The position numbers and the translations under genes were made by a program. Positions 17,511 to 38,685 of a stretch of 64,000 bases of DNA are shown here, piece after piece (the stretch's first letter is position 1; each line of letters begins with the position of its first letter). The stretch spans positions 1 to 64,000 of the forward strand of contig JALUAG010000011.1 of assembly GCA_027045875.1 (NCBI GenBank), written 5' to 3'. Below the pieces are notes generated by a model that worked only from the letters and a program-made list of their open reading frames with translations, did no database searches and was not told the origin of the DNA. This DNA comes from Alphaproteobacteria bacterium (GTDB taxonomy: Bacteria > Pseudomonadota > Alphaproteobacteria > Geminicoccales > Geminicoccaceae).

Positions 17511-18776
17511 TCACGAGAGCCGTCGACGGACGGCATCGAAATCGGGAAAGCCGGCCAGCGGGCCGATGGCGGCCAGGGTGGGCACGGCCGCGAGCAGCCG
17601 TTCCGCCAAGCGGCGGATCTGCACGCGGTCCACGGCCTCGATCTTTTCGACGAGCTCCGGCACCGGCAGCCGGCGGCCGAAGAAGAGGAGCTGCCGGGCC
17701 ATGTCCTCCGCCACCGCCCCACAGCTTTCGAGGCTCATCAGCAGGTTCGCCTCGAGCTGCTTTTTCGCGCGGGCCAGCTCCGCCTCGCTCGGCCCCTCAG
17801 CGAAACGCGCGATCTCGTCGCAGAGGGTGAACACGAGCTCCGCGGCACGGTCGGGCTCGGTGCTCGAATAGACCCCGAACAGCCCGGCGTCGGCGAAGCA
17901 GGAGACGAAGCCGAACACCGAATAGGCGAGGCCCCGCCGTTCCCGCACCTCCTGGAAGAGGCGCGAGGCCATGCCGCCGCCCAGGATGTTGGAGAGGAGA
18001 TGGAGGGCGTAATAGTCGGGGTCGGTGTAGGAGACGGCGGGAAAGCCGAGCACCAGATGGACCTGGTCGCAGTCCCGCTCCAGAAGACGCGCCCCGCCCC
18101 GATAGCGGGCGGCCGGTGCCGTCGTCGTGCCCCTGCGGGGGAGCTCGCCGAACAGCCGCGCCGCCAGCGCCACCACCTCCTCGTGGTCCACCTTGCCGGC
18201 GGCGGCGACGACGGCGCGGGAGGCGAGGTAGCGCTCGCCCAGGAACCGGCAGAGCGCCTCCCGCGGCATGGCGGCCACACTCGCCCGGTCGCCCAGGACC
18301 GGGCGCCCCAGCGGCTGTTCCGGAAAGGCCTGCGCCTGGAAGAGATCGAACACGAGATCGTCGGGCGTGTCGGCGACCTCGGCGATCTCCTGCAGGATCA
18401 CCTGCCGTTCGCGGGCGAGCTCCTCCTCCTCGAGCCGGGAATGCTGGAGGATGTCGGCCACGAGATCGAGGGCCAGCGGCAGATCGGCGGCCAGCAGCCG
18501 GGCATAGTAGGCGGTGTATTCGCGCGAGGTGTGGGCGTCGAGGCTGCCGCCCACGCTCTCGATCTCCTCGGCGATGCGGCGCGCGTCGCGCCGTTCCGTC
18601 CCCTTGAAGGCCATGTGCTCCAGCATGTGGGCGACGCCCGCGGCATCCGCGGGCTCGTGGCGGGTTCCGGCCCCGATCCACACGCCCACCGCCACCGTCT
18701 CGACGTGCGGCAGCCCGGCCGTGGCCACCCGCAGCCCGCTCGGAAGGGTCGTCAGGCGGTGTACGAGGGTGCTCAT
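17511..18776 (-). CDS. M16 family processing peptidase
   Basis: Zinc metallopeptidase of the pitrilysin/mitochondrial-processing-peptidase family, 421 residues. The inverted zinc motif HMLEH (His50, Glu53, His54) and the distal ligand Glu130 (RERQVILQEIAEV) are intact, so it is the catalytic type. The C-terminal half has the substrate-gating region LLSNILGGGMASRLFQEVRE. It starts with a four-base ATGA overlap with the end of thrC and is the last gene of the long cox-thrC unit. In alphaproteobacteria this thrC-M16 pairing is common. The physiological substrate is unknown. Confidence 0.95.
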   Translation of the reverse strand: MSTLVHRLTTLPSGLRVATAGLPHVETVAVGVWIGAGTRHEPADAAGVAHMLEHMAFKGTERRDARRIAEEIESVGGSLDAHTSREYTAYYARLLAADLPLALDLVADILQHSRLEEEELARERQVILQEIAEVADTPDDLVFDLFQAQAFPEQPLGRPVLGDRASVAAMPREALCRFLGERYLASRAVVAAAGKVDHEEVVALAARLFGELPRRGTTTAPAARYRGGARLLERDCDQVHLVLGFPAVSYTDPDYYALHLLSNILGGGMASRLFQEVRERRGLAYSVFGFVSCFADAGLFGVYSSTEPDRAAELVFTLCDEIARFAEGPSEAELARAKKQLEANLLMSLESCGAVAEDMARQLLFFGRRLPVPELVEKIEAVDRVQIRRLAERLLAAVPTLAAIGPLAGFPDFDAVRRRLS

Positions 18777-20170
18777 GCGCGGCCCGTGCGGCGGACGAAC
18801 TCCTGGACGGCGGCGAGATCGGCGTCGAGGACGACGAACCGCTCCTCGCGCGTCACGAGGTCGGCGAGATGCGGCGGCAGCGTCGGCCGCCTGCCGGTGG
18901 CCTCGGTCACGGTCTCCGGGAACTTGGCCGGATGGGCGGTGGCGAGGCAGACGAGCGGCCCCTCGCCCGGCCGCCGCAGCCGGCGACCGACCTCGACCCC
19001 GACCGCGGTGTGGGGGTCGATGACCTGGCCGCTCTCCTCGAACACCCTGCGGATGGCGGCGCGGGTCTCCTCCTCCGTCGCCCGGCCGGCCCGGAACAGC
19101 TCGCCCAGCCGCGCCATCCGCCCCGGCTCCACCGCGAGTTCGCCCGTCTTCGTGAAGTTCTCGAGCGCGCGCCGCACGCGCGCGCCGTCCCCGTCCTCGA
19201 GATCGAACAGCAGGCGCTCGAAGTTGCTCGCCACCTGGATGTCCATGCTCGGCGTCACGGTGGGGACCACCTCGCCCAGACGGTAGATGCCGGTTTCGAA
19301 GAAACGGGCGAGGATGTCGTTGCGGTTGGTGGCGACGATCAGGCGACGGACGGGCAGGCCGATGCGACGGGCCACGTAGCCCGCGTAGACGTCGCCGAAG
19401 TTGCCGGTGGGGACGGCGAAGACGGGCGGTCTTTCGAGCCCGCCAAGGCGCAGGGCGGCATGGACGTAGTAGACGGCCTGGGCGAGGATGCGCGCCCAGT
19501 TGATGGAATTGACGGCGGCCAGATCCTGTTCGCGGCGGAAGGCGGTATCCGCGAACATCGCCTTCACCAGCGCCTGGCAGTCGTCGAAGGTGCCGCGCAC
19601 CGCGATGTTGAAGACATTGTCGGCATCGACGGTGGTCATCTGCCGCCGCTGCACCGCCGATACGCGCTCGTGGGGGTGGAGCACGACGATGCGCATGTTG
19701 GCGCGCCCGGCGACGGCATGGATGGCGGCCGAGCCGGTATCGCCCGAGGTGGCGCCGACGATGGTGATGGACCGGCCGCGACGGGCCAGCACCCGCTCGA
19801 ACATGAGCCCCAGGAGCTGGAGGGCGAAATCCTTGAAGGCCAGGGTGGGGCCGTGGAAGAGCTCCAGCAGCCAGTCGTCGGGCGCGATCTGCACGAGAGG
19901 CGCGGTGGCGGCATGGGCGAAACCGGCGTAGGCGCGCGCACACAGCTCGGCCAGCTCGGCCTCGTCGAAACAGTCCTCGACGAAGGGCCGCAGCAGGCGG
20001 GTCGCCGTCTCCGGATAGGAGAGGCCGCTCAGGGCGGCGAGCGCTTCCCGCGGGAACCGCGGCCAGTCCTCGGGCAGGAACAGACCCCCGTCCTCGGCGA
20101 GGCCGGCGAGCAGCACCTCCTCGAAACCGCGCCGCCCGGCGCCGCCGCGGGTACTCACATGAGCGATCAT
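18773..20170 (-). CDS. thrC: Threonine synthase
   Basis: PLP enzyme producing threonine from O-phosphohomoserine. The 465-residue length and the start VSTRGGAGRRGFEEVLLAGL fit the long bacterial/fungal-type enzyme. The PLP lysine is Lys113 in FHGPTLAFKDFALQLLG, and the phosphate-binding run GATSGDTGSAAIHA follows. It overlaps the M32 carboxypeptidase stop by four bases at its start and the M16 peptidase start by four bases at its end, so translation is coupled through all three. No other threonine gene is nearby. Confidence 0.97.
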   Translation of the reverse strand: MIAHVSTRGGAGRRGFEEVLLAGLAEDGGLFLPEDWPRFPREALAALSGLSYPETATRLLRPFVEDCFDEAELAELCARAYAGFAHAATAPLVQIAPDDWLLELFHGPTLAFKDFALQLLGLMFERVLARRGRSITIVGATSGDTGSAAIHAVAGRANMRIVVLHPHERVSAVQRRQMTTVDADNVFNIAVRGTFDDCQALVKAMFADTAFRREQDLAAVNSINWARILAQAVYYVHAALRLGGLERPPVFAVPTGNFGDVYAGYVARRIGLPVRRLIVATNRNDILARFFETGIYRLGEVVPTVTPSMDIQVASNFERLLFDLEDGDGARVRRALENFTKTGELAVEPGRMARLGELFRAGRATEEETRAAIRRVFEESGQVIDPHTAVGVEVGRRLRRPGEGPLVCLATAHPAKFPETVTEATGRRPTLPPHLADLVTREERFVVLDADLAAVQEFVRRTGRA

Positions 20171-21666
20171 GCGGCCGGGCTCCCCAGGGCCACATCGTAG
20201 CGTTCCGCCAGATGGGCGAAGAAGGCGTCGCAGGAAAGGGGGGCGCCGCTGGCCTCGCGGACGAGCTCCGCGAATTCGGGCCGCGAGCCCTGCCCGTGCA
20301 CCTTCTCGCGCAGCCAGCCGAGGAGATCCCCGAACTCGCCGGCGGCGAGCGCCCGCGGCAGATCCGGCAGCGCCGCCCGCACCGCACGGAAGAGCTGGGC
20401 GGCCAGCAGCGCGCCCACCGTGTAGCAGGGGAAATAGCCGAACAGGCCCACGGGCCAGTGGATGTCCTGCAGGACTCCCCGGCGGTCGTCGGGCGGCGTC
20501 ACGCCGAGCAGTTCCCGCATACCCTCGTTCCAGGCCGCCGGCAGCTCGGCGGGCTCCAGCCCACCCTCTATCAGCGCCCGCTCCAGACGCCAGCGCAGGA
20601 TCACGTGGAGCGGGTAGGTGAGCTCGTCGGCATCGACGCGGATGAAACCGCGGGCGACGTGATTGTAGAGGCGCACGAGATTGTCGGTGGCTAATGCCGG
20701 GTCGGGACCGAAGGCGCGCTCCAGCTCCCCGGACAGGAAGGCGAGAAAGGGGCGCGAGCGACAGACCTGCATTTCCACGAGCAGCGACTGGCTCTCGTGG
20801 ACGGCCATGCCCCGTGCCGCGCCCACCGGCTGATCCAGCCAGTCGCGCGGCAGTCCGGCCTCGTAGAGGGCATGGCCGGTCTCGTGCAGCACCGCCATCA
20901 GGCCCGTCGTGGCGTCGGCCTCGTCGTAGCGGGTGGTAATGCGGATGTCGGTGGGCGTCCCACCGCAGAAGGGATGCGTGCTCTCGTCCAGCCGCCCGTG
21001 CGCGAAATCGAAGCCGAGGCGGCGCATCAGCCTCTCGGCGAGCGCCTTCTGGGCGGCACGCGGAAACGGCCCGCGGGGTCGCCGCGGCGGCTGCTGGCGG
21101 GCGAGGAGATCATCGACGAGATCGGGCAGGCGATCTGCGAGGGGTGCGAACAGGGGTTCGAGATCGCGGTCCGACAGGCCCGGCTGGTAGGTCCCGAGGA
21201 GCGCGTCGTAGGGCGCGAGGCCGAGCGCGGCGCCGAGCTGGCGCGCGCGTTCCCGCTCCAACCCGACCACCTCCTCGAGATGGGGGCGCAGCAGCGCGAA
21301 ATCGCTGTCCTCGCGCGCCCGTCGCCATACGAGCTCGGCCCGCGTCGTGGCCTCGGCGGCGGCCTCGACGAGGGCCGGATCGACCGCCACGGCGAGGGTG
21401 CGCAGCCGGCGCATCTCCCGCAGGTTGGCCCGCCGCCAGGGATCGTCGACGGGCGACGCCGCCGCTTCCTCGAGCCATTCCCCGAGCTCGGGCGAGGTCA
21501 GGATGTCGTGGGCGAGGCGTCGCAGGGTGGCGATCTGGAGACCGCGCGCCGGCGCGCCGCCCGAGGGCATCCAGACCGCCTGGTCCCAGGTCAGGACGGC
21601 GAGCGCGCCTTCGATGCCGTGGAGGCGGCGGAAGCGGGCCTCGAGTTCGGCGAGCGGCCCGCTCAT
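20167..21666 (-). CDS. M32 family metallocarboxypeptidase
   Basis: Thermostable carboxypeptidase Taq family, 499 residues, cytosolic zinc enzyme that trims C-terminal residues broadly. The zinc motif HETGH is at 261-265 (AVLHETGHALYEAGLP), preceded by the family segment STHPFCGGTPTDIRITTRYD and followed by AVHESQSLLVE with the third ligand glutamate. The start ATG at 21666 overlaps the ctaA stop by four bases. Its place between heme A synthase and threonine synthase is notable but may reflect only operon growth. Confidence 0.95.
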   Translation of the reverse strand: MSGPLAELEARFRRLHGIEGALAVLTWDQAVWMPSGGAPARGLQIATLRRLAHDILTSPELGEWLEEAAASPVDDPWRRANLREMRRLRTLAVAVDPALVEAAAEATTRAELVWRRAREDSDFALLRPHLEEVVGLERERARQLGAALGLAPYDALLGTYQPGLSDRDLEPLFAPLADRLPDLVDDLLARQQPPRRPRGPFPRAAQKALAERLMRRLGFDFAHGRLDESTHPFCGGTPTDIRITTRYDEADATTGLMAVLHETGHALYEAGLPRDWLDQPVGAARGMAVHESQSLLVEMQVCRSRPFLAFLSGELERAFGPDPALATDNLVRLYNHVARGFIRVDADELTYPLHVILRWRLERALIEGGLEPAELPAAWNEGMRELLGVTPPDDRRGVLQDIHWPVGLFGYFPCYTVGALLAAQLFRAVRAALPDLPRALAAGEFGDLLGWLREKVHGQGSRPEFAELVREASGAPLSCDAFFAHLAERYDVALGSPAA

Positions 21667-22583
21667 GCCCCGGCCGCTGGCACGCCGCCGGTCTCGCGAC
21701 CGGGATGGGCCTTCCACAGGATCATGGTGAGGTGCATGAAGACGAGGATGGCGATCGCCTGATGGGTGACCGCCGCCCAGAGGGGCCAGAAGGTGCCGAC
21801 GCCGTGGGCACCGAGAAGGGCCGCCAGCAGCACCAGCAGGAGCGCGCCGGTGCCGAGGCCGCGGAAGGCGCCGCCCCATCGGCGACCGCGGAGAAAGAGG
21901 AACAGGACCGCGATCACCGTCAGCCCGGCCAGCACCCGATGGATCCAGTTGACCAGCACGAGGGGATCCGAGAGGTCGGGGACGAGGGCACCGTCGCAGA
22001 GGGGCCAGGTCGCGCAGGCCATGGCGGCCCCCATCTTGGCCATCATCGCCGCCGAGACGATGGCGGCGAAGGTGACGATCCAGGTGAGGAGCACGAGCGC
22101 GCGAAAGGCGCCGTCGACCGCCGGCGCCGGGCTCCCCGCCCGGGCGGTGAGAAAGAGGGTCATGGCCAGCACGAGCAGGGCGGTGCCGAGATGAAGCGCC
22201 ACCGACCAGGGACTGTTCTGATCGAGCACGGTGACACCTCCGAGTCCCGCCTGGACGACGAGCAGAATGACGAGGAGGGCGGCCCCGCCGGCGAGACCGG
22301 GCCGTTCCTCGCGATGGCGCAGCGCCAGCCAGGCGACGATCAGCACCAGGGGTCCCAGGAACACGCCGGCAATCAGGCGATGCACCCACTCGAGCATCAC
22401 CTGGTAGTATTCGTAGCCGGCATCCTCGGGAATGGTACCCGGGAGCGGCAGCCAGCTCCCGTAGCAGGTCGGCCAGTCCGGACAGGAGAGGCCGGAATTG
22501 GTGACCCGCACGGTCGCTCCCAGAACGATCAGGACGAATGTCAGCAGAGCCGCCAGACCGGCGGTCAGTTTCAGGGCACGCAC
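21663..22583 (-). CDS. ctaA: Heme A synthase (CtaA/COX15)
   Basis: Integral membrane enzyme that oxidises the C8 methyl of heme O to give heme A for aa3 oxidase. The 306 residues form about eight helices. The four heme-ligand histidines are visible in WVHRLIAG, VALHLGTALL, WIHRVLAGL and VTHQAIAIL. Two cysteine pairs (SCPDWPTCYG and ACATWPLCDG) mark the cysteine-containing form. From memory, many alphaproteobacteria use a longer COX15 without these pairs. The gene lies between SURF1 (four-base gap) and the M32 peptidase (four-base overlap) in the cox unit. Confidence 0.94.
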   Translation of the reverse strand: MRALKLTAGLAALLTFVLIVLGATVRVTNSGLSCPDWPTCYGSWLPLPGTIPEDAGYEYYQVMLEWVHRLIAGVFLGPLVLIVAWLALRHREERPGLAGGAALLVILLVVQAGLGGVTVLDQNSPWSVALHLGTALLVLAMTLFLTARAGSPAPAVDGAFRALVLLTWIVTFAAIVSAAMMAKMGAAMACATWPLCDGALVPDLSDPLVLVNWIHRVLAGLTVIAVLFLFLRGRRWGGAFRGLGTGALLLVLLAALLGAHGVGTFWPLWAAVTHQAIAILVFMHLTMILWKAHPGRETGGVPAAGA

Positions 22584-22587
22584 GTCG

Positions 22588-23334
22588 CTATCCTTCGCTC
22601 AGAGACCGATCGCGGCGCTCGGCACCGCGCCTGAAGCCGAAGACGACATAGATCACCAGCAGCGAAGCCGCCAGCCCGAACCAAGTAACGGCATAGCCGA
22701 GATGGCGGTTGGGCAGGTTCGCCCGTACCGGCAGGACGGTGGCCAGCAGCTCCGGCGGTTCCGCCTCCTGGGCGTGGAGGAGGAAGGGAGCGACGGGAGC
22801 TCCCACCAGTCGCGCGAGGGCCTCGCGGTCGAGCCAATAGAAGCGACGGGCGGTGATGTCGTTGTCGGGCACGAACAGGCGCTGGCGCACATCGCCGATG
22901 TGGACCAGCACGCCGTCGATCCGCGCCCGTGCCGGTCGGGCGAGGGCGGCCGGCTCGGCGGGCGGCAGTTCGGCCTCGGGCAGCCAGCCGCGATCGACCA
23001 GGAGCACGGTCCCGTCGGCGAGGCGCATGGGGGTGATCAGGGAGGCGCCGAGCCGTCCGCCGACGGTGAGGGCACCGAGGGCGAAGTTGTGGACCGCCAG
23101 CAGTTCGCCCGCGAGCCGCACCCGCCGGTAGTCGAAGGCCCGCCCATCTGCCGGCAGGGTGTCGAGGGTGACGGGCGGCGCCGCCAGTCCCGTCTCCATG
23201 CGGGCGATGAGATCCTGCTTCCAGAACAGGCGCTTCACCTGCCAGGAACCGAGACCGACCAGTACCAGGAAGGCGAGGGCGGTGGCGAGGGTGGCGGCCG
23301 CTCCCGGCCGGAAGCGCCGCCCTTCAGCCGGCAT
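22588..23334 (-). CDS. SURF1 family cytochrome oxidase biogenesis protein
   Basis: Inner-membrane protein that helps place heme A in subunit I of aa3 oxidase. The 248 residues have the expected two terminal membrane helices (about 14-32 and 214-232) flanking a periplasmic domain. Family motifs are LGSWQVKRLFWKQDLI, LVDRGWLP, and the C-terminal NRHLGYAVTWFGLAASL. The start overlaps the DUF983 stop by 11 bases. It is a member of the cox unit. Confidence 0.95.
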   Translation of the reverse strand: MPAEGRRFRPGAAATLATALAFLVLVGLGSWQVKRLFWKQDLIARMETGLAAPPVTLDTLPADGRAFDYRRVRLAGELLAVHNFALGALTVGGRLGASLITPMRLADGTVLLVDRGWLPEAELPPAEPAALARPARARIDGVLVHIGDVRQRLFVPDNDITARRFYWLDREALARLVGAPVAPFLLHAQEAEPPELLATVLPVRANLPNRHLGYAVTWFGLAASLLVIYVVFGFRRGAERRDRSLSEG

Positions 23335-23683
23335 GATCGAAATCGCGCGCCCGATGCTTGAACTGGAGACCGATCATCATCGCCTTGAGAGGACGCATCA
23401 GCAGGAGACAGGCGAGCAGCGCGAGGGGAAGCCAGACCAGGAGATGGAGCCAGATCGGCCAGCCGAACCGGACCTCGACCAGGAGGGCGGTACCGACGAC
23501 GAGAAAGCCCACGAGCAGAACGATGAAGGCCACCGGCCCGTCGCCGCTGTCCTCGCCGGAAAGATCGAGACCGCAGGCTTCGCAGCGCGGGACCACGGAC
23601 AGGAATCCGCGGAACAGCCGGCCGCGCCCGCAGCGCGGGCAGCGGCCGGCGAGCGCGGAGCCGACCGGTGACGCGACGGTCAC
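23324..23683 (-). CDS. DUF983 family membrane protein
   Basis: Small alphaproteobacterial membrane protein nearly always next to coxC and SURF1; probably a helper of oxidase assembly, function unproven. A zinc-ribbon-like start (CPRCGRGRLF … CEACGLDLSGEDSGDGP) is followed by two membrane helices. I prefer the GTG at 23683, one base after the coxC stop, giving about 119 residues beginning MTVASPVGSALAG. An ATG at 23722 would add 13 residues and overlap coxC by 38 bases. Confidence 0.88.
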   Translation of the reverse strand: MTVASPVGSALAGRCPRCGRGRLFRGFLSVVPRCEACGLDLSGEDSGDGPVAFIVLLVGFLVVGTALLVEVRFGWPIWLHLLVWLPLALLACLLLMRPLKAMMIGLQFKHRARDFDHAG

Positions 23684-23684
23684 C

Positions 23685-24545
23685 CTATTCGACCGGGGTG
23701 ACGGTGAATTCGAGGCTGCCACCCCACCAGTAGACGAAGACGAACAGGAACAGCCAGACGGCGTCGACGAAATGCCAGTACCAAGCGGCGGCCTCGAAAC
23801 CGACGTGGCGCTGTGGCGTGAAGTCGTTCTTCCAGGCCCGGATGGTGCAGACGATCAGGAAGACGGTGCCGATCTGCACGTGCAGCCCGTGGAAGCCGGT
23901 GGCCATGTAGAAGGCCGAACCGAAGATCCCGTCCTGCAGGGTGAAGCCCTCGTGGACGATGGCGACGTAATATTCGTAGGCCTGGAAGAAGGTGAAGGTG
24001 AGGGCGAGCACCACCGTGAGCAGCAGCGCCTTGAAGGCGGTCCGGTTGTCGTTCTGCTTGATGGCGTGATGTGCCCAGGTGACGGTGGCGCCGGAGGTCA
24101 GCAGGATCAGGGTGTTGAGGAAGGGGATCTCCCAGGTCGGGACGGGCTCCACGCCTTCGGGCGGCCAGGAGACGGCGACCAGCTCCGGCGGTACCAGCGC
24201 GCCCCAGAAGAAGGCCCAGAAGAACGCGGCGAAGAACAGCACCTCGGAGGTGATGAAGAGCGCCATGCCCATGCGCAGCCCGCGGGCCACCACTTCCGTG
24301 TGATGGCCGCTCCGGGCCTCCTGGATGACGTCCCGCCACCAGCCCCACATGGTGACGAGAATGCCGAGGAAACCGAGCAGGGTGATCCACTTGCCACCGG
24401 CGATATCGTGCATCCACATGACCGCCCCGCCGGTGAGCGGGAGGGCGGCCAGGCTGCCGACGATGGGCCAGGGACTGGGATCCACGAGATGATAGGGATG
24501 CTCGTGCCCGTGAGCCGCCGTCGCCGTGTCTGTTCCTGACGCCAT
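23685..24545 (-). CDS. coxC: Cytochrome c oxidase subunit III
   Basis: Third core subunit of the aa3 oxidase, seven membrane helices, 286 residues. Recognised from HPYHLVDPSPWPIVGSLAAL at the N-terminus, FITSEVLFFAAFFWAFFW, the conserved glutamate-bearing helix, GFHGLHVQIGT and the C-terminal AAAWYWHFVDAVWLFLFVFV. It begins 30 bases after ctaG ends. All expected conserved segments are present. Confidence 0.98.
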   Translation of the reverse strand: MASGTDTATAAHGHEHPYHLVDPSPWPIVGSLAALPLTGGAVMWMHDIAGGKWITLLGFLGILVTMWGWWRDVIQEARSGHHTEVVARGLRMGMALFITSEVLFFAAFFWAFFWGALVPPELVAVSWPPEGVEPVPTWEIPFLNTLILLTSGATVTWAHHAIKQNDNRTAFKALLLTVVLALTFTFFQAYEYYVAIVHEGFTLQDGIFGSAFYMATGFHGLHVQIGTVFLIVCTIRAWKNDFTPQRHVGFEAAAWYWHFVDAVWLFLFVFVYWWGGSLEFTVTPVE

Positions 24546-24575: not shown

Positions 24576-25154
24576 TCAGGAATCGCCGACCGGCTCGCCG
24601 GCGGCCTCCGTCGCCAGCGCCGCGGTGGCTTCCTCGTTGAGATAGAAGGTATAGGAGAGCGTGATCTGCCGCACCTCGTTGGCCGTCGGATCCTCGAGCA
24701 GTTCGCGATCGACGAAGAACGAGACCGGCATTTCGACCCGCTGGCCCGGCTCCAGCTTCTGCTCGTCGAAGCAGAAGCACTGGACCTTGTAGAAGTATCC
24801 GCCCACCTTGAACGGGGTAACGTTGTAGACCGCCTGGCCGACCAGCGGCCGGTCGGAAAGGTTGACCGCCTCGAACGCCACGAAACCCGGCTCGCCGATG
24901 CGCACGGTGACCGCCTTCTCGAGCGGACGCACCCGCCACGGCAGGCGCTTGTCGACGTCGGCGTTGAAGCTCACCTCGACCAGGACATCCGTGGCCTCTT
25001 CCGGCGGCGCCTCGGCGACGTCGGTCGTGCCACCGTAGCCCGTGATCTGACAGAACAGCCGGTAGAGCGGCACCGAGGCCGCCGTCAGGCCCACCATTCC
25101 GGCCACCACCGCGACGAGGGCGAACGCCGTGCGCCGGATACCGCGGGTCGCCAT
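24576..25154 (-). CDS. ctaG: Cytochrome oxidase copper chaperone CtaG/COX11
   Basis: Periplasm-facing, single-span chaperone delivering copper to the CuB site of subunit I. The 192 residues have one N-terminal helix (about 9-28), Cys35 just after it, and the copper motif CFCF (Cys126, Cys128) in KVQCFCFDEQ. The segment VNLSDRPLVGQAVYNVTP is diagnostic of the family. The ATG shares one base with the stop of the small coxF-like ORF, so translation is coupled. Confidence 0.97.
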   Translation of the reverse strand: MATRGIRRTAFALVAVVAGMVGLTAASVPLYRLFCQITGYGGTTDVAEAPPEEATDVLVEVSFNADVDKRLPWRVRPLEKAVTVRIGEPGFVAFEAVNLSDRPLVGQAVYNVTPFKVGGYFYKVQCFCFDEQKLEPGQRVEMPVSFFVDRELLEDPTANEVRQITLSYTFYLNEEATAALATEAAGEPVGDS

Positions 25155-25279
25155 CAGTTCCCCCCGAGCCGGACCAGGGTGACGAGATAGAAGAGGACGG
25201 CGAGGGCCACCAGGAGCCCACCCAGGAGCAGGTTCTTGGTGCGCTGGCGTCGCCGGAATTCGCGGTCGTCGAGGGACAC
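25154..25279 (-). CDS. Small single-span CoxF-like protein
   Basis: A 41-residue ORF with a GTG start at 25279 and a TGA sharing one base with the ctaG ATG. The product begins MSLDDREFRRRQRTKN and continues with one hydrophobic helix (LLLGGLLVALAVLFYLVTLV), then ends RLGGN. A short basic head plus one helix, placed between ctaB and ctaG, is the pattern of the tiny CoxF-like proteins of alphaproteobacterial cox operons. Its tight fit (four bases after the ctaB stop, one-base overlap with ctaG) supports it being real. Function is unproven, presumably oxidase assembly. Confidence 0.8.
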   Translation of the reverse strand: MSLDDREFRRRQRTKNLLLGGLLVALAVLFYLVTLVRLGGN

Positions 25280-25283
25280 GCGA

Positions 25284-26228
25284 TCAGCTCCCGAAGGCGT
25301 CGAATACGGCATGATCGACCACCAGTCCGAGAAAGATCAGGAACAGATAGAGGACGGACACGCGGAAGCCGCGCCGCGCCACCTCGTCGCGACCCGTGCG
25401 CAGCAGCCGCCAGGCGACGCCCGTGAACATCGCGCCCGCGACCAGCGCTACGAGTCCGTAGAGGGCTCCCGCCGCGCCGACCGCCACCGGCAGGAGGCCG
25501 GCCAGCGAGACCGCCAGCGCATAGGCGAAGATGTACCGCAGCGTCCGCCGCCGGCCGGCCACCACCGGCAGCATCGGCACCCCGGCGCGACGATAGTCCT
25601 CGTTGCGATAGAGCGCGAGCGACCAGAAATGGGGCGGCGTCCAGAGAAAGACGATCAGGAAGAGCAGGAGAGGTGGAAGCCCCACATCGCCGGTCACCGC
25701 GGCCCAGCCGACCACCGGCGGCAGGGCGCCGGCCACGCCGCCGATGACGATGTTCTGGGGCGTGCGACGCTTGAGGAACAGGGTGTAGACGACGAGATAG
25801 AAGAGGATGGTGAAGGCGAGGAGCCCCGCCGCCAGCCAGTTGAGCGCGAGTCCCATCAGCATCACGGCGATCAGCGCGAGCGCGATGCCGGTGCCGAGGG
25901 CCTCGGCCGGCGCGATCCGCCCGGTGGCGGTGGGACGCCCGCGGGTGCGCCGCATCTGCCGGTCGATGTCCGCGTCGTAGGCATTGTTGATCGCCGCACA
26001 GGCGCCGGCCCCGAGCGCGATGGCCAGGACGGCGACGAAGCCGAGCAGGGGGTGGATCGTGCCCGGCGCCAGATAGAGCCCGACCGCGCCCGTGAAGACC
26101 ACGAGCTGCATGACGTTGGGTTTCAGCAGGCGCCAGTAGTCGAGGGGGGTGGCCACCGGCTCGGCGGCCACCTCCGTCGCGATCATCCCCGCGCTGCGCG
26201 GCACGGTCCGCACGCCCCCCGCGGCCAT
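25284..26228 (-). CDS. ctaB: Protoheme IX farnesyltransferase (heme O synthase)
   Basis: UbiA-superfamily membrane enzyme that adds farnesyl to heme b, giving heme O for CtaA. The 314 residues have multiple helices, the first aspartate motif NNAYDADIDRQMRRTRGRP and the family segment FLWTPPHFWSLALYRNEDYRRAGVPMLPV (quoted here as FLWTPPHFWS and RRAGVPMLPV). An alternative start at the second methionine (residue 15) would be closer to relatives. It starts four bases after the coxA stop. Confidence 0.96.
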   Translation of the reverse strand: MAAGGVRTVPRSAGMIATEVAAEPVATPLDYWRLLKPNVMQLVVFTGAVGLYLAPGTIHPLLGFVAVLAIALGAGACAAINNAYDADIDRQMRRTRGRPTATGRIAPAEALGTGIALALIAVMLMGLALNWLAAGLLAFTILFYLVVYTLFLKRRTPQNIVIGGVAGALPPVVGWAAVTGDVGLPPLLLFLIVFLWTPPHFWSLALYRNEDYRRAGVPMLPVVAGRRRTLRYIFAYALAVSLAGLLPVAVGAAGALYGLVALVAGAMFTGVAWRLLRTGRDEVARRGFRVSVLYLFLIFLGLVVDHAVFDAFGS

Positions 26229-26232
26229 CGAC

Positions 26233-28682
<2,450 letters not shown>

Positions 28683-28762: not shown

Positions 28763-28776
28763 TTGATCCAGATCAA
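28763..28776. promoter_or_regulatory. FNR/FixK-type box upstream of coxB
   Basis: TTGAT-CCAG-ATCAA is a perfect match to the FNR/FixK consensus TTGAT-N4-ATCAA. It lies 81-94 bases before the coxB start, a usual distance for regulation of that promoter. The match is seen; regulation by an oxygen-responsive Crp/Fnr protein is inferred, and sign (activation or repression under low oxygen) is unknown. Confidence 0.6.
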
Positions 28777-28858
28777 GTGATACCGACGCCGCGAAGGCTG
28801 CACTTGGTGACAGATTGTCGCAGAATATGCCGGAAATCCTGGAAGGGTGGTCGTCGTC

Positions 28859-30157
28859 CTAGACGCCGATGCGGTGTCGCAGCCGGCGCAGCCCCAGCCA
28901 GACCGCCGCCACCGCCAGCGGCACGAGGGCCGCCAGCAGCGGCGCCTGCGCCTTTCCGGCGAGGCCGAGCCAAGGTCCCGTGCCCTCGATCACATAGGCG
29001 GCAAGCCCCACCAGATAGTAGCTCAGGACCACCACCGACAGCCCTTCCACCGTCTGCTGCAGGCGCAGCTGGAGGGCCGCCCGGTGTTCCATCGATTCGA
29101 GAAGCGCGCGGTTCTGTTCCTGCAGCTCGAGATCGACGCGCGTGCGCACGAGATCCGATGCCCGCGAGATCCGCCGGCTCAGCCCCTCCAGCCGTTCGGC
29201 CGTCGAGCCGCAGGTGCGCATGGCAGGCTCGAAACGGCGGGCGAGGAACTGGCCCAGAGGCTGGAAGGGCTCGAACCGCTCCTCCCCGAGCTCCCGCAGC
29301 CGGTCGCGCACGAGCTGGTGGTAGGCCCGCGTGCCGCCGAACCGGAAGGCGGTTTCCGCAACCTGCCGCTCGATGTCGGCGGCGAGCGCGAACAGTTCCT
29401 CGAGCAGCTCCCGCTCGTCGGCCAGTCCCCGGGCCTCGCCGATCCGTGCCGTGAGCACCGCGAGTCGGGTTTCCGCCGCCGTCAGCCCCGGCGCCGCCCG
29501 GCGCGCGAGCGGCAGTCCGAGAAGCGCCATCATCCGGTAGGTGTCGATCTCCACCAGGCGCTGCACGAGCCGCCCGGCGCGGGCCGGATCCAGCCCCCGA
29601 TCGGTGATGTGGAAGCGCCCGAACCCGTCTCCGTGCGGCCGCCAGTCGGTGCAGACCACGGCGGCGTTGCCCATCACCCGGCTGGCCCGCACCCGATGGC
29701 CCTCGAACAGCGCGTCGATCCGCGCCGGGTCGGGTGGCCCGCCCCGTTCCAGAACGAGATGGGCGGCGGCCACCACGGTGCCGGGCAGTGCAGCGAGCCA
29801 GTCCTCGGGCAACAGCGCAATGGCCGTGTCGCGGAACGGCTGCAACCCGCCCCCGGGCCTGAGGAAGGTCAGGGTGACGAACTCCAGGTGCCGCTCGAAG
29901 CGCAGCTCGAAGCGGCCGAGGTCGACGGCGTGGAAATGTTCGCGGAAGGGAGGCGAGGCCCCGTAGCGGCGGCACAGCTCCGCCACCTGGTCGAGCACCC
30001 GGCCGGCCTCCTCGTGGCCGGTCAGCATGGCGACATGGGAGATGGTGACCGGCGCCGAAACGGCGGCCGCGGGACGGCTGTGCAGCTCGTCCACCAACCG
30101 CTCGAAGTCGGGGTGGAAGGTCAGCCCGTAGGCCCGGATCGCCGGATCTTCGCTCAT
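28859..30157 (-). CDS. DUF3422 family protein
   Basis: Conserved proteobacterial protein of unknown role, 432 residues. Recognised from HPDFERLVDELHSRPAA at the N-terminus, HLEFVTLTFLRPG, CTDWRPHGDGFGRFHI and IDTYRMMALLGLPLAR. A long helical central part (about 220-350) with many acidic residues precedes two C-terminal membrane helices (about 365-387 and 400-420), so it is likely anchored by its tail. The ATG at 30157 overlaps the rsmE stop by four bases, suggesting co-translation with rsmE, which need not imply shared function. Confidence 0.88.
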   Translation of the reverse strand: MSEDPAIRAYGLTFHPDFERLVDELHSRPAAAVSAPVTISHVAMLTGHEEAGRVLDQVAELCRRYGASPPFREHFHAVDLGRFELRFERHLEFVTLTFLRPGGGLQPFRDTAIALLPEDWLAALPGTVVAAAHLVLERGGPPDPARIDALFEGHRVRASRVMGNAAVVCTDWRPHGDGFGRFHITDRGLDPARAGRLVQRLVEIDTYRMMALLGLPLARRAAPGLTAAETRLAVLTARIGEARGLADERELLEELFALAADIERQVAETAFRFGGTRAYHQLVRDRLRELGEERFEPFQPLGQFLARRFEPAMRTCGSTAERLEGLSRRISRASDLVRTRVDLELQEQNRALLESMEHRAALQLRLQQTVEGLSVVVLSYYLVGLAAYVIEGTGPWLGLAGKAQAPLLAALVPLAVAAVWLGLRRLRHRIGV

Positions 30158-34473: not shown

Positions 34474-34499
34474 CACCGACCGGTGGCGTCCGGTCGGTG
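34474..34499. promoter_or_regulatory. Perfect 10-bp hairpin/inverted repeat upstream of ccoG
   Basis: CACCGACCGG, a six-base spacer (TGGCGT) and CCGGTCGGTG form a perfect inverted repeat ending 27 bases before the ccoG ATG. As RNA it would make a stable hairpin in the 5' leader; as DNA it could be an operator. No T run follows, so it is not a simple terminator. No FNR-type box is visible here, which is unusual for a fixG promoter. Confidence 0.45.
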
Positions 34500-34526
34500 A
34501 CCGGACGTCTTGCAGGCAGGAGCGAG

Positions 34527-35987
34527 ATGGGCGAGGCCGTTGCCACGGAAGAGGTGCTCTCGCGCAAGGAGCAGAAGGAATCCCCGCTCTACGAAGGCCG
34601 CGTCAAGGTTTATCCGAAGGCGGTAAGGGGGCGTTTTCGTACCATCAAATGGGCGACTCTGGTCACCCTGCTCGGGATCTACTACGTCCTTCCCTGGATC
34701 CGCTGGGACCGTGGTCCCGGCGCTCCGGACCAGGCGGTGCTCGCCGATTTCCTCACCCGTCGCCTCTACTTCTTCGGTATCGAGATCTGGCCCCAGGAGG
34801 TCTACTACCTGACCGGCCTCCTGGTACTGGCGGCCTTCGCCCTGTTCCTCGCCACCGCCCTGTTCGGCCGGGTCTGGTGCGGCTTCACCTGCCCGCAGAC
34901 GGTCTGGACCGATCTTTTCATGTGGGTCGAGCGGATGGTGGAGGGCGACCGCGGCGAGCGCATCCGCCTCGACAAGGCTCCCTGGACCGGCGCCAAGATC
35001 GCCAAGAAGGGCGTCAAGCACCTTCTGTGGCTGCTGATCGCCGCCGCCACCGGCGGTGCCTGGATCATGTACTTCAACGACGCGCCGACCGTGACGGTGG
35101 CCCTGCTCACCGGCGACGCCAGCCTGACCCAGTATTTCTTCTTCGGCCTGTTCACCAGCACCACCTATCTCCTCGCCGGCATCGCCCGCGAGCAGGTCTG
35201 CATCTACATGTGCCCCTGGCCGCGCATCCAAGGGGCCCTGATCGATCAGGACACCCTCGCCGTCACTTACGAACGCTGGCGTGGCGAGCCGCGCATGCCG
35301 TTCCGCAAGGGTCAGGACTGGAGCAAGCGGGGCGATTGCATCGACTGCAGGCAATGTGTCGTCGTCTGCCCGATGGGCATCGACATCCGCGACGGCTTCC
35401 AGCTCGAATGCATCGGCTGCGCCCTCTGCGTCGACGCCTGCAACGGAGTCATGGAGAAGATCGGCCGGCCGCGCGATCTCATCACCTACGACAGCGAGCG
35501 CAACCTCGAGCTGCGCGAGCAGGGGCGGCCGCCGCGGCTCAATCTCGTGCGGCCCCGCACCATCCTCTACGCCTCGGTGATCCTGCTCGTGGGTGCCCTC
35601 ATGCTGGCGGCGCTGCTACTGCGCTCGGATGCCGAGATCAGCGTGCTGCACGACCGCAACCCGCTGTTCGTGAGCCTCTCCGACGGCAGCCTGCGCAACG
35701 GCTACACCGTCAAGATCATCAACAAGGAGCGCCGGCCGCGTCGCTTCGAGATACGCGTGGAGGGTCTCGAGGAAGCGCTGCTGACGATGATCGGGACCCG
35801 CAGGATCACGGGCTCGACGCTCACCGTCGAGGCACCGCCGGACGGAGTGAGCGAGCACCGCATCTTCGTCACCGTCCCACGCCCTCTCGTGGAAGGATCG
35901 ACGACCGACGTGCGGTTCGTCATCACCGACCTCGAGACCGGCGAGACGCGGCGGGCGGAGAGCGTCTTCCGGGGACCCGAGAAATGA
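34527..35987 (+). CDS. ccoG: Cytochrome cbb3 oxidase accessory protein CcoG (FixG)
   Basis: Membrane iron-sulfur protein involved in copper handling (Cu(II) to Cu(I) reduction) for cbb3 oxidase assembly. The 486 residues have several helices with the conserved VWCGFTCPQTVWTDLFMW loop, a ferredoxin domain with CIDCRQCVVVCPMGID and CIGCALCVDACNGVM, and a C-terminal periplasmic Ig-like domain. The ATG at 34527 gives MGEAVATEEVLSRKEQKE. It overlaps ccoH by four bases. No ccoNOQP genes precede it in this window. Confidence 0.95.
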   Translation: MGEAVATEEVLSRKEQKESPLYEGRVKVYPKAVRGRFRTIKWATLVTLLGIYYVLPWIRWDRGPGAPDQAVLADFLTRRLYFFGIEIWPQEVYYLTGLLVLAAFALFLATALFGRVWCGFTCPQTVWTDLFMWVERMVEGDRGERIRLDKAPWTGAKIAKKGVKHLLWLLIAAATGGAWIMYFNDAPTVTVALLTGDASLTQYFFFGLFTSTTYLLAGIAREQVCIYMCPWPRIQGALIDQDTLAVTYERWRGEPRMPFRKGQDWSKRGDCIDCRQCVVVCPMGIDIRDGFQLECIGCALCVDACNGVMEKIGRPRDLITYDSERNLELREQGRPPRLNLVRPRTILYASVILLVGALMLAALLLRSDAEISVLHDRNPLFVSLSDGSLRNGYTVKIINKERRPRRFEIRVEGLEEALLTMIGTRRITGSTLTVEAPPDGVSEHRIFVTVPRPLVEGSTTDVRFVITDLETGETRRAESVFRGPEK

Positions 35988-36478
35988 TGCGGGAAAAGGT
36001 CGAAAAACCTCGGCGGGGTCATTGGATCCCCTGGGCGTTCGGCGCCTTCTTCCTGGTGGTGCTGATCGCCAACGGCACCATGGTCTACATCGGCATGACC
36101 ACCTGGACCGGCCTCGTATCGGAGAACTATTACGAGGAAGGACGCAACTACAACCGTAACATCGCCGCGGCCGAAGCCCAGGCCGCCCTCGGCTGGCAGC
36201 TCGACATCGAGGCGCGCCTGCGCTTGGGCTTCGAGGGCGAACTTCTGGTCGACCTCCGGGACCGGCAGGGCGCACCCATCACCGACGCGGAGGTGACCGC
36301 CCGCTTCGTCCGGCCCACCTCCGAGGGCAACGATTTCGCCGTCGCCCTCGCGGATGCCGGTGACGGTCGCTACCGCACCGTCTTCACCCTGCCCCTGACC
36401 GGGCTCTGGGAGATCCACGTCGATGCCGTCCGGGGCGAGGATCGCTTCGTCCGCAGCCGCCGGGTGACCCTGCGCTGA
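35984..36478 (+). CDS. ccoH: FixH family protein
   Basis: Single-span accessory protein of cbb3 assembly, 164 residues. One N-terminal helix (about 16-38, WIPWAFGAFFLVVLIANGTM) is followed by a periplasmic beta domain containing YYEEGRNYNRNIAAAEAQAA and GWQLDIEARL, which are family-typical. Two ATGs (35984 and 35987) are possible. It overlaps ccoG by four bases and ccoI by one. Confidence 0.93.
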   Translation: MMREKVEKPRRGHWIPWAFGAFFLVVLIANGTMVYIGMTTWTGLVSENYYEEGRNYNRNIAAAEAQAALGWQLDIEARLRLGFEGELLVDLRDRQGAPITDAEVTARFVRPTSEGNDFAVALADAGDGRYRTVFTLPLTGLWEIHVDAVRGEDRFVRSRRVTLR

Positions 36479-38685
36479 TGGCATCGACCGGCGCCGGCCA
36501 GCCGCTGCCGCCGGAAGAGGAATTGCCGGCTCCCGACGTGCTGCCCTTCGTGCGCGAGGACGGCGAAAGCGGCGACCGGCTGCTGCATCTCATGGTGGAA
36601 GGAGTGCATTGCGGCGGCTGCGTGGCCCGCATCGAACGGCGCCTCGCCCGCGAGCCCGACGTCGCGACCGCCCGCGTCAATCTCACCACCCGGCGGCTGC
36701 TCCTGCGCTGGCGGGGTCCGGCCGAGCGCGGCAACGCGCTGGCCGGGATCGTGCGCCAGCTCGGCTACCGGGTGGTGCCCTACGATCCCGAACGGCTGCG
36801 GAGCCAGGACGACCGCCAGGAGAAGGAGCTGCTGCGGGCGATGGCGGTGGCGGGTTTCGCTACCGGCAACGTCATGCTGCTGGCGATCTCGGTCTGGGCC
36901 GGCCATTTCACGGGCATGGGGGAGGCCACCCGCGCCTTCTTCCACTGGTTCGAGGCCCTGGTCGCGCTGCCGGCCATCGCCTATGCCGGCCGGCCCTTCT
37001 TCCGCTCCGCCCTGGGCGCGCTCAGGGCCGGCCACACCAACATGGACGTGCCGATCTCGCTGGCGGTGCTGATCGCCCCGGCGGTGAGCCTGTTCGAGAC
37101 CGTGCGCGGTGGCCCCCACGTCTATTTCGACAGCGCCATCACCCTCCTCTTCTTCCTGCTGATCGGCCGCTATCTGGACAGTCGGGCCCGCGGTTCCGCC
37201 CGCTCCGCCGCCGAGCGCCTGCTGGCGCTGGCCGCGGGCTCGGTGACCCTCGTCCGCCCCGACGGCACGACCCGCAGCGCCCGCCCCGAGGAGCTGGAGG
37301 CGGGCCAGGAGATCCTGGTCGCCAGGGGCGAGCGCATCGCCGTCGACGGGGTGGTGAGCCACGGCAGGAGCGAGGTGGACACGAGCCCGATCACCGGCGA
37401 GACGGTGCCGCAGGCGGTGACCGAGGGAGACCGGGTGTTCGCCGGCACCCTCAACCTCGCCGCCCCCATCCGGGTGCGGGTGCGGGAGGTGGGCGAGGGC
37501 ACCCTGTTGGCCGAGATCGTGCGGCTGATGGAACTGGCCGAGCAGCGGCGCGGCCGCTACGTGGCCCTCGCCGACCGCGTCGCCCGCCTCTACGCCCCCT
37601 TCGTGCACAGTCTCGCCGCCCTCGCCTTCCTCGGCTGGTGGCTGCTGGGCGGCATGGACTGGCAGGCGGCGCTGCTGATCGCCACCGCGGTGCTCATCAT
37701 CACCTGTCCCTGCGCCCTCGGCCTCGCCGTGCCGGCGGTGCAGGTGATCGCCTCGGGACGGCTGATGAAGCGGGGCACGCTCCTCAAGAGCGCCACCGCC
37801 CTCGAACGGGTGGCGGAAGTGGACACGGTGGTGTTCGACAAGACGGGCACCCTCACCGAAGGCCTGCCGCTGCCGATCCTCGACGGCATCGACCGCGAGG
37901 ATCTGCTGGCCGCCGCCTCCCTCGCCAAGACCTCGCGCCATCCCCTCGCCCGGGCGCTGGCGGCGGCGGTGCCCGAGGCGCGGGCGGCGACGGAAGTGGA
38001 GGAGGTGCCCGGCTGCGGCCTGCGACGCCGCACCGCGGCCGGGGAATGGCGGCTCGGACGGCGCGGCTGGGCGGCGGCGGGCGACGGTCGCGAGCCCGAA
38101 GGCCCCGAACTCTGGTTCGCCCGCCCCGGCCGGGAGCCGGTCCGCATCCCCTTCCGCGACCGGCTGCGCCGCGACGCGGCCGCCGTGGTGGCGGCCCTGC
38201 GCCGGCGCGGCATCGCGGTCGAGCTCCTTTCCGGCGACCGCGTGGCGGTGGTGCGCCGGGTGGCCGACCAGCTCGGCATCGAGGCCTGGCAGGGCGAGCT
38301 GCAACCGGCCGCCAAGGTCGCCCGTCTCGAGGCCCTCGCCGCCGCGGGTCGGCGGGTGATGATGGTCGGCGACGGGCTCAACGACGCGCCGGCGCTGGCG
38401 GCGGCGCACGTCTCCATGTCGCCCGCCACCGCCATGGACATCAGCCAGACGGCGGCGGACGCCGTGTTCCAGGGGCGCGATCTGGCACCGGTGGCGGACC
38501 TCCTCGACACCGCCCTGCACGCCCGCCGGCTGGTGAAGCAGAACCTCGCCCTGTCGCTCGCCTACAATCTCGTCGCGGTGCCGCTGGCGGTGGCCGGCTA
38601 CGTGACGCCGCTGGTCGCCGCCATCTGCATGAGCGCGAGCTCCGTCACCGTGGTCGCCAACTCCTTCCGTCTCGAACGGCGCTGA
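36478..38685 (+). CDS. ccoI: Copper-exporting P1B-type ATPase CcoI (FixI)
   Basis: Pumps Cu(I) across the inner membrane for insertion into cbb3 oxidase. The 735 residues have an N-terminal HMA domain with GVHCGGC (Cys45, Cys48), the transmembrane metal motif CPC at about 410-412 (TCPCALGLAVP), the phosphorylated aspartate in DKTGT at about 454, SRHPLA, and GDGLNDAPAL at about 632. The FixI-subgroup identity rests on its position after ccoGH and on CGGCVARIE. The small ccoS gene that often follows is absent; the next gene is convergent 12 bases on. Confidence 0.95.
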   Translation: MASTGAGQPLPPEEELPAPDVLPFVREDGESGDRLLHLMVEGVHCGGCVARIERRLAREPDVATARVNLTTRRLLLRWRGPAERGNALAGIVRQLGYRVVPYDPERLRSQDDRQEKELLRAMAVAGFATGNVMLLAISVWAGHFTGMGEATRAFFHWFEALVALPAIAYAGRPFFRSALGALRAGHTNMDVPISLAVLIAPAVSLFETVRGGPHVYFDSAITLLFFLLIGRYLDSRARGSARSAAERLLALAAGSVTLVRPDGTTRSARPEELEAGQEILVARGERIAVDGVVSHGRSEVDTSPITGETVPQAVTEGDRVFAGTLNLAAPIRVRVREVGEGTLLAEIVRLMELAEQRRGRYVALADRVARLYAPFVHSLAALAFLGWWLLGGMDWQAALLIATAVLIITCPCALGLAVPAVQVIASGRLMKRGTLLKSATALERVAEVDTVVFDKTGTLTEGLPLPILDGIDREDLLAAASLAKTSRHPLARALAAAVPEARAATEVEEVPGCGLRRRTAAGEWRLGRRGWAAAGDGREPEGPELWFARPGREPVRIPFRDRLRRDAAAVVAALRRRGIAVELLSGDRVAVVRRVADQLGIEAWQGELQPAAKVARLEALAAAGRRVMMVGDGLNDAPALAAAHVSMSPATAMDISQTAADAVFQGRDLAPVADLLDTALHARRLVKQNLALSLAYNLVAVPLAVAGYVTPLVAAICMSASSVTVVANSFRLERR

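Follow-up and report, generated by a model that had tools for sequence, protein, structure and literature searches.

Does an FNR-type box in front of an aa3 cytochrome oxidase operon call for the oxidase when oxygen is low, or does it switch the oxidase off? The question is raised by a 64 kb stretch of DNA (64,000 nucleotides, hereafter the window) from a genome of 3.53 Mb in 110 contigs, estimated to be 99.9% complete, in which genes were called with a codon-bias script without use of annotation. The nearest named relatives of its CoxB protein are two unclassified alphaproteobacterial sequences, followed by several from Geminicoccaceae metagenome assemblies, and this family is represented in our collection by 31 genomes, that of the window (G000) included.

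The oxidase genes form a long array on the minus strand, all read in one direction from coxB to a gene for an M16 peptidase. The array opens with coxB for subunit II (27843–28682) and coxA for subunit I (26233–27819; PF00115, 555 bits), continues with an ORF that we take to be a ctaB-like protoheme farnesyltransferase (25284–26228), a 52-residue membrane ORF that is presumably coxF-like (25154–25312), the assembly protein gene ctaG/cox11 (24576–25154), coxC for subunit III (23685–24545) and an ORF presumed to be DUF983-like (23324–23722), and reaches surf1 (22588–23334) and ctaA/cox15 (21663–22511), the start of which may lie further upstream. Behind these follow genes for an M32 carboxypeptidase (20167–21666), threonine synthase, thrC (18773–20170), and the M16 peptidase (17511–18776), each overlapping the gene before it by 4 nt; the M16 gene is the last of the tight cluster and is separated from the next ORF by 91 nt. 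G002 preserves the order from coxB to M32-thrC-M16, as does G014, where no ctaG match was found, while in the boxless genomes G006 and G023 the order reaches the M32 gene, with no match to thrC or the M16 gene in the roughly 7 kb fetched beyond. As far as gene order can tell, thrC and the two peptidases may thus be tied to the oxygen control of the aa3 oxidase.

The box itself lies at 28763–28776 on the minus strand (TTGATCCAGATCAA; TTGATCTGGATCAA on the coxB strand, where the sequence across it runs GGTATCAC-TTGATCTGGATCAA-GGCGAG). It is placed 81–94 nt before the coxB ATG, with 87 nt from box centre to ATG, in an intergenic gap of 176 nt between that ATG (28682) and the end, at 28859, of a DUF3422 gene (28859–30157, minus strand). 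Since the DUF3422 gene is co-oriented, coxB is the gene downstream of the box, and no divergent gene was seen that the box might serve. The box is an exact match to the TTGAY-N4-RTCAA dyad of FNR/FixK/ANR operators, and in its stricter form, TTGAT-N4-ATCAA, it is the single site in the window, where 0.01 matches are expected on average from dinucleotide shuffles (one of 100 shuffles contained a match); with one mismatch allowed it remains the sole match against 0.26 expected. The perfect box at a regulatory distance from coxB that had been claimed in a preliminary description of this DNA is therefore confirmed on both counts. Across the whole genome the exact form occurs twice and the degenerate form TTGAYNNNNRTCAA at 15 sites, the coxB box among them. 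A reversed-pattern control of this search was judged weak, its words being rare in coding DNA, and conservation and gene context were used in its place.

Judged by their neighbours, 12 of these 15 sites are located at redox, anaerobic or regulator genes, coxB being one of them. The other targets are an SCP2 protein gene followed by one for a U32 peptidase, fnr, napA (262 nt away), a cytochrome c gene, a nirS/nosR-like divergent pair, a CuA subunit gene beside an unusual COX1 protein, nnrS, a MauG/cytochrome c peroxidase-like gene, two POR_N-domain genes and nosR; the protein that we take to be NirS matches PF02239 with 495 bits. The remaining three sites lie 255 nt before a gene for a Cys/Met-metabolism enzyme, in the gap between glycosyltransferase and polysaccharide flippase genes, and before a 122-residue ORF without a Pfam match. 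No link between the coxB box and denitrification was found across the family: of the 23 family genomes that lie outside the box-bearing clade 12 have cytochrome cd1 matches below 1e-100, as do five of the eight inside it; G022 and G026 carry the coxB box and gave no cytochrome cd1 match below that threshold.

Several of these sites deserve mention in their own right. The box before the SCP2/U32 pair (L054, C16:7210), a pair that is presumably ubiT-ubiU-like, suggests that oxygen-independent ubiquinone synthesis may belong to the FNR regulon. The exact sequence TTGATCAGGATCAA recurs in all three members of the genus (C46:18013 here, L010; L205 and L226), 255–271 nt before the gene for the Cys/Met PLP enzyme. 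The glycosyltransferase/flippase divergent promoter carries its box in G000 (L065, C106:80467), G002, G001 and G014 (also L196, L230 and L254), and in G000, G002 and G001 it is followed, 22 nt on towards the glycosyltransferase gene, by a TA hexamer. The unusual COX1-family protein (L068, C49:43615–45150) has GHSSQQI in place of the oxidase motif GHPEVY and is accompanied by a CuA subunit and ctaB- and SCO-like ORFs, beside nnrS and FNR boxes at C49:45834 and C49:47109; we presume that it could be an sNOR-type NO reductase. As for the cbb3 oxidase, ccoG, an ORF taken to be ccoH-like and a heavy-metal P-type ATPase gene (ccoI-like) lie in the window at 34497–38685 on the plus strand, and ccoN on another contig (C106:88192–89496). 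No box within one mismatch of the degenerate pattern was found at either ccoG or ccoN of this genome (34101–34600 and C106:86500–88700 scanned); relatives have boxes at ccoN (G016, G022, G028, G014) and at ccoG (G016, G028).

Of 60 genomes 55 gave a coxB match, and the upstream regions of the 30 best loci among these were compared; 25 of those loci belong to the family. An exact TTGAYNNNNRTCAA box stands at the equivalent position in G000, G001, G002, G016, G022 and G026, and G028 and G014 each have a box there that departs by one mismatch; the remaining 17 of the 25 family upstreams have no box there, and G031, a genome outside the family, carries an exact box at a greater distance, some 270 nt before coxB. 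Among seven related genomes, in one of which the box has a single mismatch, seven of the eight half-site positions (TTGA/TCAA) are invariant, compared with 16 of 135 columns outside the box and the palindrome described below (Fisher p = 8e-6, a value that ignores kinship and, counting related genomes as separate rows, overstates the evidence), whereas the 4-nt spacer varies between genomes. Half-sites that are kept while the spacer drifts argue that the box is under selection. The eight box-bearing genomes form one branch of the midpoint-rooted CoxB tree (support 100/98), while the seven without G014 are grouped only at 51/93; a single gain of the box followed by its decay in G014 would be the simplest reading.

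The coxB promoter holds a second conserved element, absent from the preliminary description, namely the palindrome TGCGACAATCTGTCAC at 28807–28822 on the minus strand, which would be centred near −44. Sequences scoring at least 13 of 17 against TTGCGACANNNTGTCRC are present in 25 of the 30 coxB upstreams and in 24 of the 25 from the family, 12 of its 16 positions are invariant in the seven genomes, and a combined search for palindrome, 24–36 nt and box retrieved six of the 31 family genomes. Sites for RegA/PrrA/ActR are described in PMC4263372 as an inverted repeat of GCG that is degenerate and has a spacer of varying length, a loose definition into which TGCGACA-N3-TGTCRC falls, and the genome encodes a member of the RegA/PrrA family (NF033791, 277.9 bits, cut-off 250) beside a paralog that scores below the cut-off. 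The form TGCGACANNNTGTCRC is matched exactly only at 28807–28822, so that exact matches in the genome pointed to no other RegA targets, and one mismatch adds only two further sites, no more than the reversed control. Because the palindrome is no common motif in the genome, its assignment to a RegA-type regulator is a weak one.

A TA-initial hexamer follows the palindrome by 22–25 nt in 24 of 25 palindrome-bearing upstreams, boxless ones included (23 of 24 within the family). The hexamers (TATCCT, TATCTT, TATCAC and similar) were picked within offsets 21–26, and over all offsets from 0 to 54 TA occurs in at least three sequences only at 23, 24 and 25 (13, 5 and 5 sequences). The most plausible role of this conserved hexamer is that of the coxB −10 element, which in the window would be TATCAC at 28777–28782 on the minus strand and in most boxless relatives TATCCT or TATCTT at nearly the same distance; TATCAC is a weak −10, and a generic sigma-70 scan returned no promoter. 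In the box clade the FNR box comes directly after the hexamer or overlaps it by one base. It would thus span the putative transcription start, from about −6 to +8, in a clade of eight genomes, a layout that the sequence fits in all eight coxB promoters if the start is placed by this hexamer.

The position of the box at the putative start, together with the lack of an activating −10, favours repression over induction at low oxygen. We propose that a RegA/PrrA-type regulator, probably bound at the palindrome near −44 and replacing a good −35 element, would help RNA polymerase to use the −10 TATCAC in air. When oxygen is absent FNR would regain its Fe-S cluster and dimerize, and the dimer could occupy TTGATCTGGATCAA at about −6 to +8 and block initiation. 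Since FNR at the start point would block the polymerase, aa3 is expected to be off in anoxia and on in air; the low-affinity oxidase and the genes behind it would be shut down, while FNR, a DNR-like paralog or both would turn on denitrification through the same motif at activating positions. We infer the coxB start, the binding regulators, the direction of control and the extent of the operon from sequence, and give the model as a whole (an aerobic coxB promoter driven by a RegA-type regulator, with an FNR operator over its start and anaerobic repression of aa3 and the genes behind it) a probability of roughly three in four. The autorepression of fnr in Escherichia coli, where an FNR site covers the start point, offers the same operator position relative to the start in a different gene and organism.

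The regulators that this model calls for can be found in the genome, where matches to HTH_Crp_2 exceed the cut-off at six places, five clearly (at least 44.9 bits) and one barely. The protein encoded on contig C23 combines CDQCDARDLAVC (CxxCx7C) with another Cys 87 residues later and with a helix reading ETVSR; the four cysteines are the pattern expected for an Fe-S cluster, and its best NCBIfam model is FnrL (191 bits, below the cut-off of 300). This four-cysteine pattern is shared by 24 of 30 FNR-match loci, that of G000 included, with three cysteines in one and none in five. FNR matches at 1e-15 were found in 40 of the 60 genomes searched, most boxless family relatives among them; G026 (89% complete) has the coxB box and gave no FNR match at that threshold, and in G022 the match to the close FNR ortholog is a fragment of 82 residues. 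The search for FixK/FNR genes that the preliminary description had suggested thus yields a four-cysteine FNR with an FNR box before fnr itself and, taken with the half-sites conserved among relatives, this upholds the coxB promoter element as an FNR-type box.

The nirS contig encodes another Crp/Fnr protein, which carries a PETLSR (ExxSR) helix. The motif is the same for FNR and such a paralog, and a DNR/NnrR-type, NO-responsive protein might use the site in the same repressing layout, shutting off aa3 in response to denitrification intermediates. We regard this as possible and rather unlikely: the best models for the protein on the nirS contig are FtrB and fall below the cut-off, which leaves a DNR identity unsure, and G022 (99% complete) has an exact box without a strong cytochrome cd1 match.

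The natural reading of the preliminary description, class II activation in which FNR at −41.5 would induce aa3 at low oxygen, can be weighed by comparison with other FNR boxes. We scanned 79 non-cox loci in the same eight genomes, of which 58 could be oriented by a target signature, giving 73 rows, the others having no recognized target gene; 12 of the 73 rows (DUF2189, flippase and apbE sides) were dropped, and 61 rows from 56 loci were kept. A TA step at −6/−5 before the box is present in all eight clade coxB promoters as opposed to none of the 61 control boxes, and the coxB layout is absent from all 154 orientations of 77 distinct non-cox boxes when no target is chosen. Conversely a TA step 21–24 nt downstream, where an activating −10 would lie, accompanies 33 of the 61 control boxes and none of the eight coxB boxes, so that the −10 about 22 nt downstream that is typical of class II promoters is missing throughout, and AT content at that position is 0.40 in the controls and 0.18 at coxB. 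The other 28 control boxes also lack the downstream TA step, including all rows for ccoN (3), ccoG (2), fnr (5), nirI/nosR-like genes (5) and ubiT (1), and its absence alone is therefore no proof of repression; most fnr rows are arranged differently again, a TA hexamer coming some 10 nt behind the box, which would fit repression as well. In favour of activation, the 87 nt between box centre and ATG resemble the spacing at presumably activated genes of the same genome such as nirS (72), and Tsoy et al. give FixK/FnrN sites at cta operons, the sign being unstated in the part of that work consulted. With an AT-poor sequence where the activating −10 should be, a conserved −10 candidate on the other side of the box, and negative signs in the published cases of aa3 control that we encountered (excerpts of PMC5398030 and PMC4263372), we consider class II activation improbable. 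What stands of the low-oxygen control suggested earlier is the FNR-type box; induction at low oxygen gives way to probable repression, as the box covers the putative start. That the box is a chance palindrome without function is very improbable: the motif is short and two exact sites in 3.5 Mb are not far above what the window shuffles predict for the genome, but half-sites are conserved around a variable spacer in seven genomes, 11 other redox-type targets share the motif, and boxes recur at coxB elsewhere.

This recurrence was seen in named alphaproteobacterial records: in 16 of 80 loci, two of which belong to close kin of G000, a box is present in the 300 nt before coxB, where Markov resampling predicts 0.18. 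The first box is followed by another, TTGAG-N4-RTCAA, at eight of the 16 (L095, L097, L099, L100, L113, L116, L126 and L131; Emcibacteraceae, Kordiimonadaceae and unclassified alphaproteobacteria), and in six of these eight the second box immediately precedes TGGTA(T), an arrangement that would be compatible with repression. Boxes recurring at coxB in differing layouts make it seem that aa3 promoters acquired FNR sites on more than one occasion.

Repression of aa3 by FNR-family proteins has precedents. In Dinoroseobacter shibae anaerobic repression of ctaCBGE/ctaD is linked to FnrL, within an FnrL and Dnr network over denitrification genes that includes one box common to the divergent nirS and nosR2, all of which resembles the present case; the passages concerned differ in placing no box on the aa3 start, and their authors take the FnrL dependence of most genes to be indirect (PMC5398030, in excerpt). 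In Rhodobacter sphaeroides both CrpK and FnrL occupy the aa3 coxI region (RSP_1877-6), with a negative sign for CrpK (PMC4263372, in excerpt); FNR-family proteins thus act at aa3 there too, in another lineage and with a promoter layout not given in that excerpt. FnrN/FixK sites have been predicted ahead of ctaCDBXGE in Caulobacterales and ahead of cta in Rhizobiales, and these share the kind of motif, the operon and the bacterial class with our case, although the section in question gives neither sign nor promoter position and does not name Geminicoccaceae (PMC4999443). A negative effect is not universal, since Bradyrhizobium diazoefficiens has the same amounts of CoxA and CoxB whether its cells are oxic or microoxic (PMC6515984, in excerpt). 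A search of the open-licence literature found no work naming Geminicoccaceae together with FNR control of aa3. FNR-family control of aa3, repression included, is thus known from Rhodobacter and Dinoroseobacter, and what is new here is most likely the lineage, in a bacterium with denitrification genes.

A further reading, which we offer tentatively and hold to be less probable than its negation, is that an FNR operator built exactly onto an older RegA-driven aa3 start has rewired the oxygen switch of one clade and, through gene order, has brought the M32, thrC and M16 genes under anaerobic repression. As ccoN and ccoG of this genome are boxless and those of several clade relatives are boxed, the direct FNR target among the oxidases would on the same tentative reading have moved from cbb3 to aa3. 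The case shows how an older respiratory promoter may gain repression by oxygen status, with the same promoter, with and without its operator, open to comparison across 24 genomes of the family. The sign of FNR action is here predicted from sequence alone, and the prediction corrects the intuition that an FNR box before an oxidase means induction at low oxygen.
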